From NCBI GenBank assembly GCA_022843825.1, contig JALHMX010000004.1, positions 1 through 64,000 on the forward strand: a stretch of DNA of 64,000 nucleotides, read 5' to 3'. Within the stretch, counting starts at the first letter, position 1. Every line of letters begins with the position of its first letter. The notes under the pieces were generated by a model. The model made no database searches. It was not told the DNA's origin and worked only from the letters and a program-made list of their open reading frames with translations. This stretch comes from Pseudobdellovibrionaceae bacterium. GTDB taxonomy: Bacteria; Bdellovibrionota; Bdellovibrionia; Bdellovibrionales; Bdellovibrionaceae. This document shows positions 3,762 to 9,054 of this stretch, piece by piece. Made by a program: the position numbers and the translations under genes.

Positions 3762-4319
3762 TTAAACTTGAATCTTATCCATATAGAATCGAAGCTCGCC
3801 AATGCTTTCGCGGATATCATCCAAGGCGCGGTGAGCGTTCTGTTTTTTGTAAACTAAATCAAGCTTATTATTAAAAATGACTTTCCACGAGCTCACATCC
3901 AGCACGCGGTAATGAAGGCGCTCGGAAAAACTTTTAAAATATTTATCAATAAACAATCGATCCTGTGCGATCGAATTTCCCGCTAAGATCGGCATATATT
4001 TTTTTTCTTTTTTCCAGTCTGGAAAGTGACGGTCCACCAAGGCATTCAGGTGATACTCAACTGACGATGGCTCCATACCCAGTGGAACTTTTGCGGTAAG
4101 ACCTGATTTTCCATGGTGCTCGGTATTCCATGCGTCCATATTATCTAAATAATGCTGGGGCTGCTTAACGATAGTTTCGAAAGTTTCCAGCTCTTTAAAG
4201 TTCATGTCCGTAATAATGCAGGCCACTTCCAAAATAACTTCTTTGGTCACATCCAGGCCTGACATTTCCATATCCAGCCAAAAAAGTTTTTCTACGCGAT
4301 CAGGCTTTTGCGGGTTCAT
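3762..4319 (-). CDS. orn: Oligoribonuclease
   Basis: 185 residues, the usual size. DEDDh 3'-5' exonuclease that degrades 2-5 nt RNAs to mononucleotides, including pGpG from cyclic-di-GMP turnover. Motif I is WLDMEMSGLD (Asp and Glu), motif II NSIAQDRLFIDKY, motif III AHRALDDIRESIGEL with catalytic His and Asp. It lies 5 bp after the HMA-domain gene on the same strand. Confidence 0.95.
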   Translation of the reverse strand: MNPQKPDRVEKLFWLDMEMSGLDVTKEVILEVACIITDMNFKELETFETIVKQPQHYLDNMDAWNTEHHGKSGLTAKVPLGMEPSSVEYHLNALVDRHFPDWKKEKKYMPILAGNSIAQDRLFIDKYFKSFSERLHYRVLDVSSWKVIFNNKLDLVYKKQNAHRALDDIRESIGELRFYMDKIQV

Positions 4320-4324
4320 AATTT

Positions 4325-4642
4325 TTATTTAATTTCTTTTTTGGTAATTTTATAATCGCCAGCCGCTTGAATGTTAGTCTCAACTAAAACTAAGTCAGCC
4401 TTAACATTCGGTTTATACTTAATGACAAGTGTTCCAATTTGCTTTTTAGCATCGAAAGCGGCAAACTCGCAGGATTCAAATTGCGCGGCCAATACAGCAT
4501 CGCCACACACTTTTTTAGTGATCATTTTTTTACAAGCCCCACAATGCATGCCTTCGATGGTCAAAGTTGCTGTTTCGGCAGCGGCGAAAACAGAGGTAAA
4601 GATAAGTCCTAAAAATGCAGTCAAAGCGATATATTGTTTCAT
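4325..4642 (-). CDS. Periplasmic heavy-metal-associated (HMA) domain protein, MerP/CopZ-like
   Basis: 105 residues: a signal peptide (residues 1-21, ending VFAAAE) and one ferredoxin-like HMA domain with the metal-binding loop GMHCGACKKM. Two further cysteines follow (VCGD, ESCEF), more than in a minimal MerP. It probably binds copper or a similar soft metal in the periplasm. No metal ATPase lies next to it; it is the first gene of a run toward orn. Confidence 0.82.
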   Translation of the reverse strand: MKQYIALTAFLGLIFTSVFAAAETATLTIEGMHCGACKKMITKKVCGDAVLAAQFESCEFAAFDAKKQIGTLVIKYKPNVKADLVLVETNIQAAGDYKITKKEIK

Positions 4643-4720
4643 AAAGTTAAGATACCGCGCGGTTATTTCTCAGTCAGTCCTTTTTTTTGCATTAAAAATG
4701 CGCTGCCTCCAAGAAAATGA

Positions 4721-4748
4721 TTGAATTTCAACTGAATATCTCTATATT
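4721..4748 (+). promoter_or_regulatory. Likely sigma-70-type promoter of tRNA-Asp
   Basis: TTGAAT at 4721-4726 and TATATT at 4743-4748 are spaced by 16 bp, placing a start about 20 bp upstream of the tRNA 5' end. Judged by eye against the TTGACA/TATAAT consensus. Confidence 0.4.
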
Positions 4749-4774
4749 TAGACGTTCATTATGTCTTTGACTAC

Positions 4775-4851
4775 GGAGTGGTAGTTAAGTTGGTTATAAC
4801 GTCCGCCTGTCACGCGGAAGGCCGCGGGTTCGAGTCCCGTTCACTCCGCCA
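4775..4851 (+). tRNA. tRNA-Asp (GTC)
   Basis: 77 nt folding as a standard cloverleaf: acceptor GGAGTGG pairing with TCACTCC (last pair G-U), a D-arm with GTTGG, anticodon stem TCCGC/GCGGA with loop CTGTCAC and anticodon GTC at 4809-4811, and a T-arm with GGTTCGAGTCC. CCA is encoded at 4849-4851. Eight T residues follow at once. The 3' end adjoins a small accessory islet, as is common for tRNA integration sites. Confidence 0.97.
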
Positions 4852-4856
4852 TTTTT
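4846..4856 (+). repeat. 11-bp direct repeat, left copy, in tRNA-Asp 3' end
   Basis: CCGCCATTTTT at the tRNA-Asp 3' end recurs at 6080-6090, bracketing the islet of about 1.2 kb. The match is short and T-rich, so an attachment-site reading is only tentative. Confidence 0.3.
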
Positions 4857-4858
4857 TT

Positions 4859-5056
4859 TCAAATTCATCCAATTATGGAAAGGGCGTTGGGGGAAAACTC
4901 ATCGATGAAGTTTCAAAGAAGGCTAAGGAGATGGGTATTGGTCACATCTATTGGTTAACCCATGAGAGCAACGCAACTGCTCGTAGGCTTTATGAGAAGA
5001 CTGCAAAGAATACGGGTTTTATAACTTATGTGAAGGTTGCTGCCTCAAAGCAATAA
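4859..5056 (+). pseudogene. C-terminal fragment of a GNAT acetyltransferase
   Basis: Translating from 4859 gives about 65 residues that match only the second half of a GNAT fold: the acetyl-CoA loop YGKGVGGKLIDEV (motif A), then MGIGHIYWLTHESNATARRLYEK, the usual end of the fold. The first 80 or so residues of a normal GNAT are absent; upstream is the tRNA and its T-run. With no start of its own this is a remnant, probably truncated when the islet formed behind tRNA-Asp. Confidence 0.75.
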
Positions 5057-5063
5057 GTTCTAA
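5052..5063 (+). repeat. 12-bp direct repeat, left copy
   Basis: AATAAGTTCTAA, repeated exactly at 6052-6063. Each copy is preceded by GC (with one extra A in the second) and lies at the end of a reading frame: the GNAT remnant here, the nucleotidyltransferase there. The pair brackets the winged-helix/nucleotidyltransferase unit. Confidence 0.5.
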
Positions 5064-5142
5064 TGTCGCCCAATGGGCCATTCACTCCACTAGACCAAAA
5101 TCTGTCGCAAATCGGTATAATATCTAAAAAAACATCATAAAT

Positions 5143-5172
5143 ATCGTACTATTTAGTAGTCTAATCGTACTA
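5143..5172 (+). promoter_or_regulatory. Likely operator: two ATCGTACTA repeats 21 bp apart
   Basis: ATCGTACTA occurs at 5143-5151 and again at 5164-5172, a start-to-start step of 21 bp or two helical turns, with ACTATTTAGT (a small palindrome) between. It lies 20 bp upstream of the winged-helix gene. This is what a self-regulating DNA-binding protein binding one face of DNA would need. Confidence 0.5.
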
Positions 5173-5192
5173 CTTTGTGTTAATGTTACATT

Positions 5193-5522
5193 ATGATAGA
5201 AAATCTTTTAGGAAACAAAACAGCAGAGAAAACTTTACTTTATATTGTCAATTATGGTGAAGGGCATACTTCAGGCATCGCTCAAACTTTTGATCTGCCT
5301 AAGTCACAGGTCAGAAAACAGCTTATTCGATTAGAAGCGGGTGGAATACTGGTGGGTCGAAATGTAGGAAACATTCGAATGTTCCAGATAAATCCGCGCT
5401 GTCCCTATAAAAAAGAATTGGAAGCCTTATTGGAAAAAGTGCTTTCTATGGTTTCTAAATCCGATCAAGAAAAATACTATCGTCAGCGTCGGCGTCCGCG
5501 CAGGACAGGTAAAGCCTTGTGA
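5193..5522 (+). CDS. Winged-helix DNA-binding protein, antitoxin/regulator-like
   Basis: 109 residues. The core (residues 10-65) is an ArsR/MarR-like winged helix: GIAQTFDLPKSQVRKQLIRLEAGGILV forms the helix-turn-helix, NVGNIRMFQINPRCPYK the wing. A basic tail (RQRRRPRRTGK) ends the protein. It overlaps the next frame by 4 bp (GTGA), a coupling typical of regulator/nucleotidyltransferase pairs such as AbiE-type or DUF6036 toxin-antitoxin units. It is probably the cognate repressor, acting at the repeats upstream. Confidence 0.7.
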   Translation: MIENLLGNKTAEKTLLYIVNYGEGHTSGIAQTFDLPKSQVRKQLIRLEAGGILVGRNVGNIRMFQINPRCPYKKELEALLEKVLSMVSKSDQEKYYRQRRRPRRTGKAL

Positions 5523-6048
5523 TTAAGATCAATAAAAAAATGACTTTAGAAAGCTTTGCTATCGCCGTGGCGGAAGCGCTTAAGAAAAAAGATATTGATG
5601 TCATTTTGACGGGTGGGGCTGTGGTTTCAATTTATTCAGCGGGTAAGTATGTGTCTAAAGACGCAGATTTTTAAGTACCACAGACCATCAAACCATTAAA
5701 CAGGCTATGCTTGAACTAGGGTTTAAAAATTTAGGAAAAGATTTTTATCATGATGACAGTTCTTTTACCGTAGAATTTCCCGGATACGATCTAGTTATTG
5801 GTGATGAGCCCATGAAACCCGAGGGAAAAATAAAGCATGGCCAGTTTACGTTAATACTTTTATCCCCCACTCAGTGTGTAATGGATCGGCTAGCTGCCTT
5901 TTATCATTGGAAAGACAGGCAAAGCTTGCAGCAGGCCATCATGGTAGCGAAAAATCATCCCGTTAAATTAAAAAGTATTGAAGCATGGTCAGATAAAGAA
6001 GGCATGCGTGATCGCTATGATTTTTTTATTCAGCAGCTAAAGAAGTAA
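5519..6048 (+). pseudogene. Nucleotidyltransferase (DUF6036/AbiEii-like) split by a -1 frameshift
   Basis: From GTG at 5519 the frame gives about 51 residues including LTGGAVVSIYS and SKDADF, the GG...DxD signature of nucleotidyltransferases, then hits TAA at 5672. One base back, the reading continues from 5671 as LSTTDHQTIKQAMLELGF and runs to 6048, about 176 residues in all. The break sits on a run of five T (GAT TTT TAA). It may be a real inactivating deletion, a sequencing error at a homopolymer, or slippage: tRNA-Phe on TTT could re-pair one base back. The active-site half is intact. Confidence 0.72.
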
Positions 6049-6051
6049 GCA

Positions 6052-6063
6052 AATAAGTTCTAA
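6052..6063 (+). repeat. 12-bp direct repeat, right copy
   Basis: Exact second copy of the 12-mer at 5052, starting 3 bp after the nucleotidyltransferase stop. Downstream, TTGGCCCGCCATTT loosely echoes TGGGCCATT behind the left copy, suggesting that a longer, diverged sequence was duplicated. Confidence 0.5.
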
Positions 6064-6079
6064 ACTCATCTCAGTTGGC

Positions 6080-6090
6080 CCGCCATTTTT
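6080..6090 (+). repeat. 11-bp direct repeat, right copy
   Basis: CCGCCATTTTT, matching the tRNA-Asp 3' end at 4846-4856. Possible right boundary of the islet; the match is short. Confidence 0.3.
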
Positions 6091-6169
6091 CTCTCGAATA
6101 AATTTAATTACTTAGATACGATTTTGTAGGTGAGGATAAGCTGGTCTCGAATTTCAGAAAGCAGACAAA

Positions 6170-6625
6170 ATGGAAAAAGTTTTCAAATCAGAATTAATCA
6201 TACAGCGTCCCATTAACGTAGTATTTGATTTTTTTTCTAAAGCCGAAAATCTGCAGCGGATTACGCCGCCCTCGCTTAATTTCAATATTGTAACCTCACA
6301 GCCGATTGAAATGAAAAAAGGTACATTGATTGATTACAAATTGAAAATTCGTGGAATCCCTTCAAAGTGGAAAACCTTGATTTCAGATTGGGACCCTCCG
6401 ATAAGTTTTACGGATACGCAACTTAAAGGTCCTTACAAAAAATGGGTGCACACGCACGAATTTGCAAAACTGAGCGAAAACTCAACCCGAATGATAGACA
6501 CGGTCGTTTATGAAGTGCCCTTTGGAGTTTTAGGAAGTGTAGTTGATTACTTGATTGTTCGTCATGAAATAGCAAACATATTTAAATACAGAAATAAAAC
6601 GATCTTGAAGTTTTTTGAAAGTTGA
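6170..6625 (+). CDS. SRPBCC (START-like) ligand-binding protein
   Basis: 151 residues, single SRPBCC domain: the start FKSELIIQRPINVVFDFFSKAENLQRITPP is the characteristic first strand and helix, and WVHTHEFAKL with DTVVYEVPFG forms the later strands. Family members bind hydrophobic ligands in a helix-grip pocket; the ligand cannot be told from sequence. Similar proteins are often annotated as cyclase/dehydrase-like. It stands alone, 120 bp after the islet. Confidence 0.8.
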   Translation: MEKVFKSELIIQRPINVVFDFFSKAENLQRITPPSLNFNIVTSQPIEMKKGTLIDYKLKIRGIPSKWKTLISDWDPPISFTDTQLKGPYKKWVHTHEFAKLSENSTRMIDTVVYEVPFGVLGSVVDYLIVRHEIANIFKYRNKTILKFFES

Positions 6626-6743
6626 ATAATAGGTATAAAAGTCCTATTTAATAGAACAGAATAAGCTTTAAAAAGGTAAAAAATGGCCCAATTTTAAACC
6701 TTTTCTATAGACGTTTGTTAAAATTCACTTTAGCATTTTAGCT

Positions 6744-7973
6744 ATGAGATTGAGATTTGCAGTCATCTTCTGCTTAATTAGTATGTTAATTATTGGAAGT
6801 ATTTCTATTTTTTATAAGTCAAAACAGAAAATTATAAATTTTGAAGAAACTGCGCAGGCAGAAACGGAACTTAATGAGGTTGTACCTATAGAGCAACGCT
6901 ATCCCTATGTTATCGAACCAAGGGCGACATTTTCAGAATCTCTTCGTAAATTAGATATATCCCCTAGGGACATTCATGACATCGTGGTGGCGGCTAAGCC
7001 GATAAAAGATTTAGGTCGTTTGCATCCTGGGATAAGATTTCAAATTTTACACGCTCCTAACGAAATTGGAAATTTAGTAAGTATTCGAATTAAATTATCG
7101 CCACAAGAGGTGCTGCTGGTACAAAAAGAATTAAACACCTGGGTGGCCGAAAAAATCACAAAACAGATCCAAACCAAAGTGGCTACTTTTCGGGGTCTTG
7201 TGAAAAGTTCTTTATGGGAGTCTGCGCTTGAGGCCGGAATGAATCCCACCATTATTGCAGAACTGGCAGAAATTTTTGCCTGGCAGGTGGATTTTTCACG
7301 GGAAGTACAGGTAGGGGATCGCTGGCGGTTGTCGGTCGAAGAAGAATTTGTAAAGGGTGAAAGTATTGGGTGGGGATCCATTTTGTCGGCAGAATACATT
7401 AACGGGGCAAACACTTATACGGCTATACTGTTTCGCAAAGAAAAAGAAGATATGGGCTATTTTGCTCCGGACGGAACCAGTCTAAAAAGAGTTTTTTTGA
7501 AAAGTCCGATTCAGTATGGAAGAATTTCTTCTCGATTTTCAAAAAGACGTTTCCATCCGGTTTTAAAAGTGGCGCGACCTCATAATGGTGTTGATTACGC
7601 AGCACCAACAGGAACCCCTATCCGCGCTGTAGGAGATGGCATGATTGCCTTTGTTGGTAGAAGTGGTGGAGGTGGAAATGTCATTACAGTCCGTCATAAT
7701 TCGACGTACACGACAAGCTATAAGCATTTAAGTCGTTTTGCCAAAGGCCTCCGTAAAGGATCATCAGTTCAGCAAGGACAAACGATTGGTTATGTCGGCG
7801 CAACTGGTTTGGCGTCAGGTCCGCATTTGCATTTTGAGTTTTTTGTAAATGGTAGGTACGTCGATCCCCTAAGCCAAAAATTTCCGACGGCAGAGCCTAT
7901 CCCCCCAGATAAGCTCGTCAATTTTTTAGAGATGAAAGATAAGTTTTTTGCCTATTTGCCTGATTGGATTTAG
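6744..7973 (+). CDS. M23-family murein endopeptidase, MepM-like
   Basis: 409 residues: an N-terminal membrane anchor or signal (6-24), a middle region typical of OapA/MepM-like proteins (about 45-260, including a LysM-like start ATFSESLRKLDISPRDIHDIV), and a C-terminal LytM domain. Zinc ligands are visible in RPHNGVDYAAPTGTPI (His, Asp) and GPHLHFEF (HxH). Such enzymes cut peptide cross-links of peptidoglycan in the periplasm. No good ribosome site precedes the ATG. Confidence 0.92.
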   Translation: MRLRFAVIFCLISMLIIGSISIFYKSKQKIINFEETAQAETELNEVVPIEQRYPYVIEPRATFSESLRKLDISPRDIHDIVVAAKPIKDLGRLHPGIRFQILHAPNEIGNLVSIRIKLSPQEVLLVQKELNTWVAEKITKQIQTKVATFRGLVKSSLWESALEAGMNPTIIAELAEIFAWQVDFSREVQVGDRWRLSVEEEFVKGESIGWGSILSAEYINGANTYTAILFRKEKEDMGYFAPDGTSLKRVFLKSPIQYGRISSRFSKRRFHPVLKVARPHNGVDYAAPTGTPIRAVGDGMIAFVGRSGGGGNVITVRHNSTYTTSYKHLSRFAKGLRKGSSVQQGQTIGYVGATGLASGPHLHFEFFVNGRYVDPLSQKFPTAEPIPPDKLVNFLEMKDKFFAYLPDWI

Positions 7974-7983
7974 TTGTAAAAAG

Positions 7984-8373
7984 CTATAAATTCATGGTGA
8001 CGATAAACAATGAAATCAAAGTCGTACCAAAATAAATAAACATATTAGCTGACCCTTGAAAGTCGTAAGTGATTCTTAGTCCGAAGAGTAAAATTCCAAA
8101 AAGAAAAAGTGATCCTAATAAAGCGTAAGGCAAAAGTGCAAAATTAAAAATTGAGGCTATAAATACTAAAGTCAGTAACGCCTCAAAAGTGGCAATCAGC
8201 CAGTAACCGACCGAAGCTTTTCCTGGCAGTTGATTGATAAATGTTTTTTCAAATTGTTTATTGAACCACTCCGGAGTGGAAAGGCTTTTCCACTTATCAA
8301 AAGCAGCGGTGCCAAAAAGTAATACATAAATAAATATAATCGCAAAATTAAGAACAGGTTGAAATGATGCCAT
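7984..8373 (-). CDS. DoxX-like small integral membrane protein
   Basis: 129 residues with four hydrophobic helices. The first helix is followed by FDKWKSLSTPEWFNKQFEKTF, a pattern of DoxX/MauE-type proteins. The cellular role is unknown. The start is supported by GAAGGA 9 bp upstream. Convergent with the M23 peptidase gene. Confidence 0.6.
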   Translation of the reverse strand: MASFQPVLNFAIIFIYVLLFGTAAFDKWKSLSTPEWFNKQFEKTFINQLPGKASVGYWLIATFEALLTLVFIASIFNFALLPYALLGSLFLFGILLFGLRITYDFQGSANMFIYFGTTLISLFIVTMNL

Positions 8374-8464
8374 ATTTGTTTTTCCTTCTTTTTAACTGTA
8401 TCTGAGCATTTAAATTTATATAAGACAAAAAAATTGACTTTCAAAGCTATTTTTATAATTGCTA

Positions 8465-8845
8465 CTAAGCCAGCTTCATATGTTTTTCTAACCAAGTTGC
8501 AATTTCATCAAGGTTGGCTTTGTTTTTGATAACGCGATCAATGATAAAGGATTCTCCGTTGTCAGCATCAACTTTCAGGCGGTATCCATTCATGCGAAGA
8601 AAAATTGCACTGGTGGCGAAGGCCACGCGCTTGTTACCATCAATGAATGCGTGATTTTGGGTAAGACTTTGTAGAAGTGCTGCCGCTTGAAGGGATAAGG
8701 ATTTATAGTATCCCGTTTGGGGGCGCATAAGAGCGCTTTCTAACAGGCCCATATCGCGAACGCCTGCTTTACCGCCGAATCTATCGATAAGACGCACATG
8801 AAGTTCTAAGGTTTCAGTCAGGGTAGGGTAAAGGACGACTTTCAT
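8465..8845 (-). CDS. doc: Doc-type Fic toxin
   Basis: 126 residues, the size of phage P1 Doc. The Fic active-site motif HAFIDGNKR is at residues 65-73 with the catalytic His and the phosphate-binding DGNKR; LLESALMRPQTGYY is a typical Doc N-terminal part. Doc phosphorylates elongation factor Tu and stops translation. Its start overlaps the antitoxin stop by 4 bp. Motifs look intact, so it should be active. Confidence 0.93.
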   Translation of the reverse strand: MKVVLYPTLTETLELHVRLIDRFGGKAGVRDMGLLESALMRPQTGYYKSLSLQAAALLQSLTQNHAFIDGNKRVAFATSAIFLRMNGYRLKVDADNGESFIIDRVIKNKANLDEIATWLEKHMKLA

Positions 8846-9054
8846 TTAGCTAAACGTTTTAAAAGCTCTTCGTGCTCATCTAAGACTTCGCTCATGGCGC
8901 TGCGAAATGCAGGGCGAAGCTTTGAGCGTTGCAGATATTCTGCAACAGCATCCGATACCACACTGGAAATACTGCGATCCGCCGCTTTCGTGTAGGACTT
9001 AAGATCTTTTAACACTTTTTCATCAATCTGAGTGGCAAATTTTTTAGCTTTCAT
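8842..9054 (-). CDS. Ribbon-helix-helix antitoxin paired with Doc
   Basis: 70 residues. The N-terminal half KKFATQIDEKVLKDLKSYTKAADRSISSVVSDAVAEYL is a MetJ/CopG-type ribbon-helix-helix; the C-terminal LDEHEELLKRLAK is a charged helix of the kind that inhibits Doc by masking its active site. First gene of the toxin-antitoxin operon, expected to repress its own promoter. Confidence 0.88.
   Translation of the reverse strand: MKAKKFATQIDEKVLKDLKSYTKAADRSISSVVSDAVAEYLQRSKLRPAFRSAMSEVLDEHEELLKRLAK

Follow-up and report, generated by a model that had tools for sequence, protein, structure and literature searches.

The window, a 64,000-nucleotide stretch of DNA, carries a single-copy tRNA-Asp(GTC) gene (4775..4851; plus strand, like every other feature of the islet described here) that ends in CCGCCA, the putative insertion point (attB side). 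Behind it lie a truncated GNAT acetyltransferase gene (4857..5056), a gene for a 109-aa winged-helix protein (5193..5522) that matches the PADLOC candidate PDC-M05A (E 7e-10), a nucleotidyltransferase-fold gene with a broken reading frame (5519..6048, in pieces 5519-5674 and 5707-6048) and a gene for a standalone SRPBCC protein (6170..6625). The earlier note on this DNA had recognized a GNAT tail and a winged-helix/nucleotidyltransferase unit behind the tRNA. Both are present, but the tail comprises the C-terminal ~53 residues only (aligning to HPA2 95-147 of 152), and the unit consists of two genes, the second of them broken. Its remark that there is no integrase here stands: the interval between the sites described below holds the GNAT remnant, the winged-helix gene and the broken nucleotidyltransferase gene only, with no integrase and no transfer genes, and the genome contains no homologue, at E<=1e-40, of the tRNA-Asp serine recombinase discussed below. 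An Rfam scan of 4300-6800 returned nothing besides the tRNA, and the base composition of the islet is not shifted (39.0% GC versus 39.7%).

Two short repeats had been reported in the islet. The first, AATAAGTTCTAA, is indeed exact at both 5052 and 6052; the whole 2.4-Mb genome contains four exact copies, the other two in unrelated contexts. The second, CCGCCATTTTT, occurs without mismatch at 4846 and 6080; alone it is weak and not beyond chance within the window, but it is the common core of a conserved site. The repeats are not nested, as had been proposed, but belong to one site: the 6052 repeat opens a 39-nt sequence (6052..6090) that closes with the second CCGCCATTTTT copy. This sequence is the window copy of a conserved 40-nt right end, AATAAGTTCTAAACTCGTCCCATnnGnCCCGCCA followed by TTTTT, which we described with a sequence model built from 24 sites (R1). 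In the window, R1 placed 6052-6090 first (40.8 bits, E 9e-12) and, unprompted, the T-arm/acceptor 3′ end of tRNA-Asp with its T run (4834..4856) second (E 0.015); it likewise matches tRNA-Asp 3′ ends in many relatives.

Judged by its sequence, the right end appears to mimic the T-arm and acceptor of tRNA-Asp (GTTCTAAACTCGTCCCATnnGnCCCGCCA). It departs from the tRNA identically almost everywhere, with GTTCTAAACTCGTCCCAT where the tRNA has GTTCGAG-TCCCGT, and this near-constant difference makes an element-borne sequence more likely than a host copy. Since the right end and tRNA-Asp hold in common only CCGCCA and the following T run, we infer that the crossover takes place within CCGCCA. At 5052..5083, abutting the GNAT stop codon, AATAAGTTCTAA is followed by a gapped match to the remaining site (TCG-CCCA-NTGG---GCCATT). 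Random 32-mers align equally well in 0.8% of cases, and R1 gives this copy 4.5 bits only; it may be a decayed right end, the decay being too great for certainty. The repeats of the window are thus real, and they are probably remnants of recombination sites.

Among 140 genomes of the order, R1 matches were found in 50 at E<=0.05 and in about 28 at E<=1e-5. The pattern GTTCTAAACTCNTC..CGCCA gave 19 matches in 16 of 141 genomes, and its reversed control gave 0. Strong matches give one tRNA-Asp copy for each of the 28 genomes with strong sites. In 19 genomes a site was found on the tRNA-Asp contig: it lies downstream of the tRNA, on its strand, in 18 of these and at most 15 kb away in 16. Several other genomes have tRNA-Asp about 1.3 kb or less from the end of a contig. 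In G053, G124 and G127, right-end sites are located far from tRNA-Asp. The window SRPBCC gene has a 78%-identical counterpart in a genome of another genus (G017), with AATAAGTTCTAAACTCGTCC....GGCCCGCCA in front of it, and within 8.8 kb the right end and this adjoining gene are all that the two loci have in common. Direct repeats of ~27-40 bp are present in G014, G069 and G038. A GTDB-wide pattern scan produced 23 matches, roughly half of which we estimate to be due to chance, judging by a length that is not 29 nt, a GC-rich coding environment and the lack of a tRNA ending in CCGCCA in register; matches with tRNA-Asp or tRNA-Ser upstream (L159, L175, L179) and 29-nt forms were kept. A scan of viral contigs with the right end gave no match. 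In G005, 30 bp of the tRNA-Asp 3′ end are repeated exactly, in inverted orientation, beyond orn (L097, 8571-8600, minus strand), a layout suggesting that the segment with orn and tRNA-Asp has been inverted between two attachment sites.

The 66 nt that follow CCGCCA in the window (6086..6151) recur behind tRNA-Asp in G007 and G016, where they follow the tRNA directly, and also behind right ends in G016, G007, G003, G038 and G133. We refer to them as the left-end module; in the window it would begin the next cassette. A model of these 66 nt with CCGCCA not included (R2; 57.7 bits in the window) was run as a blind scan. Seven of 11 new matches (E<=1e-3) start right after CGCCA (0 to 1 nt), a sequence that directly precedes 0.3% of random positions; in one of the seven, from another family (G041), it is tRNA-Asp itself that precedes the match. 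The joining of one left end, at one base, to either a tRNA or a right end points to site-specific recombination of units. The module core was found by a simple pattern at 12 of 82 inspected junctions, so left ends are diverse. The junction of 4856 to 6091, proposed in the earlier note as a sign of an empty site, is seen in G007 and G016, but it reflects the shared left-end module and not a plain empty site: G007 was rejected as a simple empty site since its matching flank is the module, which is tandemly repeated in both genomes. Elsewhere in the window, a DoxX-like gene (7984-8373, minus strand) is preceded by a partial match to the module (8394-8431, minus strand, E 0.0013). G005 (L097) has this gene 1.9 kb behind tRNA-Asp, and it may therefore be either a native neighbour or an old cassette.

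The suggestion of a cassette-style array using a 3′ sequence behind a tRNA is supported by the relatives. The units between sites are single genes or toxin-antitoxin pairs, many of them 0.5-1.8 kb in size. Four right ends occur within 4.6 kb behind the G016 tRNA-Asp and enclose genes for a 316-aa protein, a RelE-like/HTH pair plus a GNAT, a TPR protein and HigBA. HigBA is also located between two right ends in G003, where a HEPN-MNT pair comes after the second; in G007 a unit of 0.7 kb encodes a single membrane protein, and G131 has a YafQ-like/HTH pair. On a delta-proteobacterial contig, AbiEi/AbiEii-like genes (identified by eye, with no family search) lie between tRNA-Ser and a right end, and HEPN-MNT-like genes, also identified by eye, are found behind tRNA-Asp in G009. 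A retron-type reverse transcriptase gene behind tRNA-Asp in G002 (L105, 1297-3147, minus strand; PADLOC RT-Toprim I-C, E 4e-197) adjoins a serine recombinase remnant. Contigs of Candidatus Eisenbacteria and a related MAG carry 1.3-1.8-kb units behind tRNA-Asp. On L159, L168 and L175, which belong to these lineages, the right ends behind tRNA-Asp precede terminator-like hairpins and genes for single large secreted proteins; these right ends imply that the system may span phyla. The window contains, in addition, a Doc/Fic-type toxin-antitoxin pair (8465-9054, minus strand), and a very similar pair adjoins a right end in G076 (L227).

The winged-helix and nucleotidyltransferase genes of the window are neighbours in nearly all relatives inspected, where the nucleotidyltransferase reading frame is intact. 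The pair has weak similarity to NTP_transf_5 and AbiEii and adjoins as in AbiE/MNT-type systems, and it may represent a putative toxin-antitoxin. In G010, a homologous pair is also located behind tRNA-Asp. We considered the possibility that right ends are tied to this particular cargo and rejected it, as homologous pairs occur elsewhere with no adjoining right ends. The earlier note would have taken relatives that have these genes but not the repeats as an argument against its reading; for this pair such relatives do exist, but the sites are conserved independently of cargo.

Larger elements at tRNA-Asp in relatives end in the same right-end site and encode a serine recombinase of ~500 aa with Resolvase, Recombinase and zinc-ribbon domains, next to a MerR-like gene. 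The recombinase is CcrB-like, with similarity far below the CcrB cut-off. Its gene is read antisense to tRNA-Asp, and the stop codon lies within the antisense of the tRNA gene. Such endings are present in all seven closest homologues (ranked by the target-end part), which are full length in G003, G033, G040 and G062 and partial in G122, G036 and G015, and which are 40-64% identical to the G003 copy. More distant recombinases (about 27-34% identical) mostly end in tmRNA, tRNA-Ala, -Leu, -Arg and -Ser genes. Within this family, the recombinase genes of G020, G030 and G046 (L236, L238, L239) terminate in tmRNA genes, in parallel to the ssrA islands of Dehalococcoides. Since full-length tRNA-Asp recombinases were found in only 4 genomes of 140, most arrays are without the enzyme and may be fossils.

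We consider it probable that the islet consists of decayed remains of small gene cassettes, at least two and probably three, stacked behind tRNA-Asp, and that a CcrB-like tRNA-Asp recombinase is the most likely enzyme. Each cassette would carry one gene or operon between a left end and a right end, the latter about 40 nt long, and cassettes would be joined by site-specific recombination at the CCGCCA that terminates the tRNA and every right end. With this common finish the tRNA would stay whole and tandem additions would be possible. The enzyme, a large serine recombinase specific for tRNA-Asp, would be supplied by the larger elements of relatives and would act on the small units as well; lacking a recombinase, these would move in trans or by accretion (that is, they would be cis-mobilizable). 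The sites are conserved, joined at one base, associated with tRNA-Asp and spaced by one gene, and there is a recombinase with the same target and the same right end; from these sequence relationships we infer the assignment of the enzyme and the excision and movement of units. Read in this light, the order in the window would be tRNA-Asp, the GNAT remnant of a first cassette whose left end is lost, a decayed right end, the winged-helix and nucleotidyltransferase genes, an intact right end, a left-end module and the SRPBCC gene. The last is the probable cargo of a third cassette: a 77-78% identical copy stands behind the G017 right end, and the window gene has no recognisable right end of its own. 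The array looks inactive, as the GNAT gene is truncated, one site is decayed, one gene is broken and the genome is without this type of recombinase.

A less likely but serious alternative is that successive full-size serine-recombinase elements accumulated at tRNA-Asp and were reduced by deletions to right ends and one or two genes, in which case the small cassettes would never have been mobile units. Cis-mobilizable elements are known to form by this route (PMC5704250), C-terminal remnants of serine recombinases are found behind tRNA-Asp in G002, G036, G014 and G077, and the window's own genes are decayed. Yet the spacing of one gene or one toxin-antitoxin pair is repeated, with clean ends, in G016, G007, G003, G131 and L159/L175, and a single left-end module starts cassettes with different genes; such uniform ends are not expected from independent random deletions. 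One gene per repeated site and cargo rich in toxin-antitoxin genes, together with inverted T-arm-like ends (GTTC..GAAC) at several junctions, would also suit an integron, or an array resembling one, built on attC sites and a tyrosine integrase, a route the earlier note had proposed to follow with attC models. It led nowhere: an integron integrase (TIGR02249) scores above the cut-off in 0 of 140 genomes, single-strand folding of the junctions resembles that of shuffled sequences in seven of eight (z-scores -0.7 to +1.5; -2.4 in the remaining one), and the sites are tied to tRNA-Asp and not to attI/intI, which makes this reading very improbable. We give just as little credence to chance repeats or shared transcription signals in a plain, vertically inherited intergenic region. 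CCGCCATTTTT alone is within chance in the window and AATAAGTTCTAA is short and AT-rich, but the E value of the full 39-nt site, the zero matches of the reversed control in 141 genomes and the strict position behind tRNA-Asp refute this explanation for the 6052 site; for the 5052 copy it is possible.

Stacked small cassettes behind tRNA-Asp would have their nearest published analogue in the tandem ssrA islands of Dehalococcoides. These lie behind one RNA gene, are inserted in its T-loop, are bounded by repeated tmRNA 3′ ends, a conserved motif adjoining the repeat, and have a CcrB-family recombinase at the island end that borders the RNA gene; some lack an integrase and were suggested to be cis-mobilizable, and the cargo is mainly reductive dehalogenases (PMC3146451). 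Here, too, the 3′ end of the RNA gene is repeated at the far boundary (CCGCCATTTTT at 4846 and 6080). A CcrB-like recombinase gene overlaps the tRNA-Asp 3′ end in the relatives G003, G062, G033 and G040, and the window's genome has none at E<=1e-40. The differences are the target, tRNA-Asp, the many one-gene or one-pair units of 0.5-1.8 kb and the recurring left-end module. CIMEs, decayed ICEs or IMEs that keep attL and attR and stand in tandem with elements that share their specificity and have an integrase (PMC5704250), resemble our units in having no integrase or transfer genes between flanking attachment sites; in contrast, we see arrays of putatively mobile one-gene units with uniform ends. 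In the window the right end is intact by sequence and the left end of the first unit is lost, and some relatives have recombinase remnants while others have one-gene units with uniform ends. The staphylococcal cassette chromosome (SCC, ccrB) also has composite tandem cassettes and, at the 3′ end of a conserved gene, a large serine recombinase of the CcrB-like type; its target (rlmH) and size differ, and no counterpart of its second recombinase, ccrA, was seen here. Chromosomal integron arrays are alike in the repeated site after each gene, the toxin-antitoxin-rich cargo and the stacking of genes, whereas the arrays described here have no IntI, no attC fold and a tRNA anchor. The present system is set apart from published ones by its target, by the many units that hold a single gene, by left and right ends that are uniform and by cargo rich in toxin-antitoxin genes. 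A search of the open-access literature found no description of it, which does not prove absence, and a text search for the core sequence of the site gave unrelated matches only.

Across the order, tRNA-Asp looks like a hotspot of gene capture run by a tRNA-Asp-specific serine recombinase. A bolder possibility, which we put forward tentatively, is a tRNA-anchored analogue of the integron, in which cassettes with a composite site (a 40-nt right end mimicking the T-arm and the 66-nt left-end module) would be captured, stacked and reshuffled in trans by serine recombinases of co-resident or passing elements, in Bdellovibrionota and probably in other phyla. This raises the question of whether arrays of minimal cassettes can be operated by a serine recombinase in the manner of IntI. 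With a pair of short sequence models and a single tRNA gene, the gene-capture site becomes searchable in predatory bacteria and their relatives, and variable cargo such as toxin-antitoxin pairs, HEPN-MNT, AbiE and, at the same tRNA, a retron can be located.
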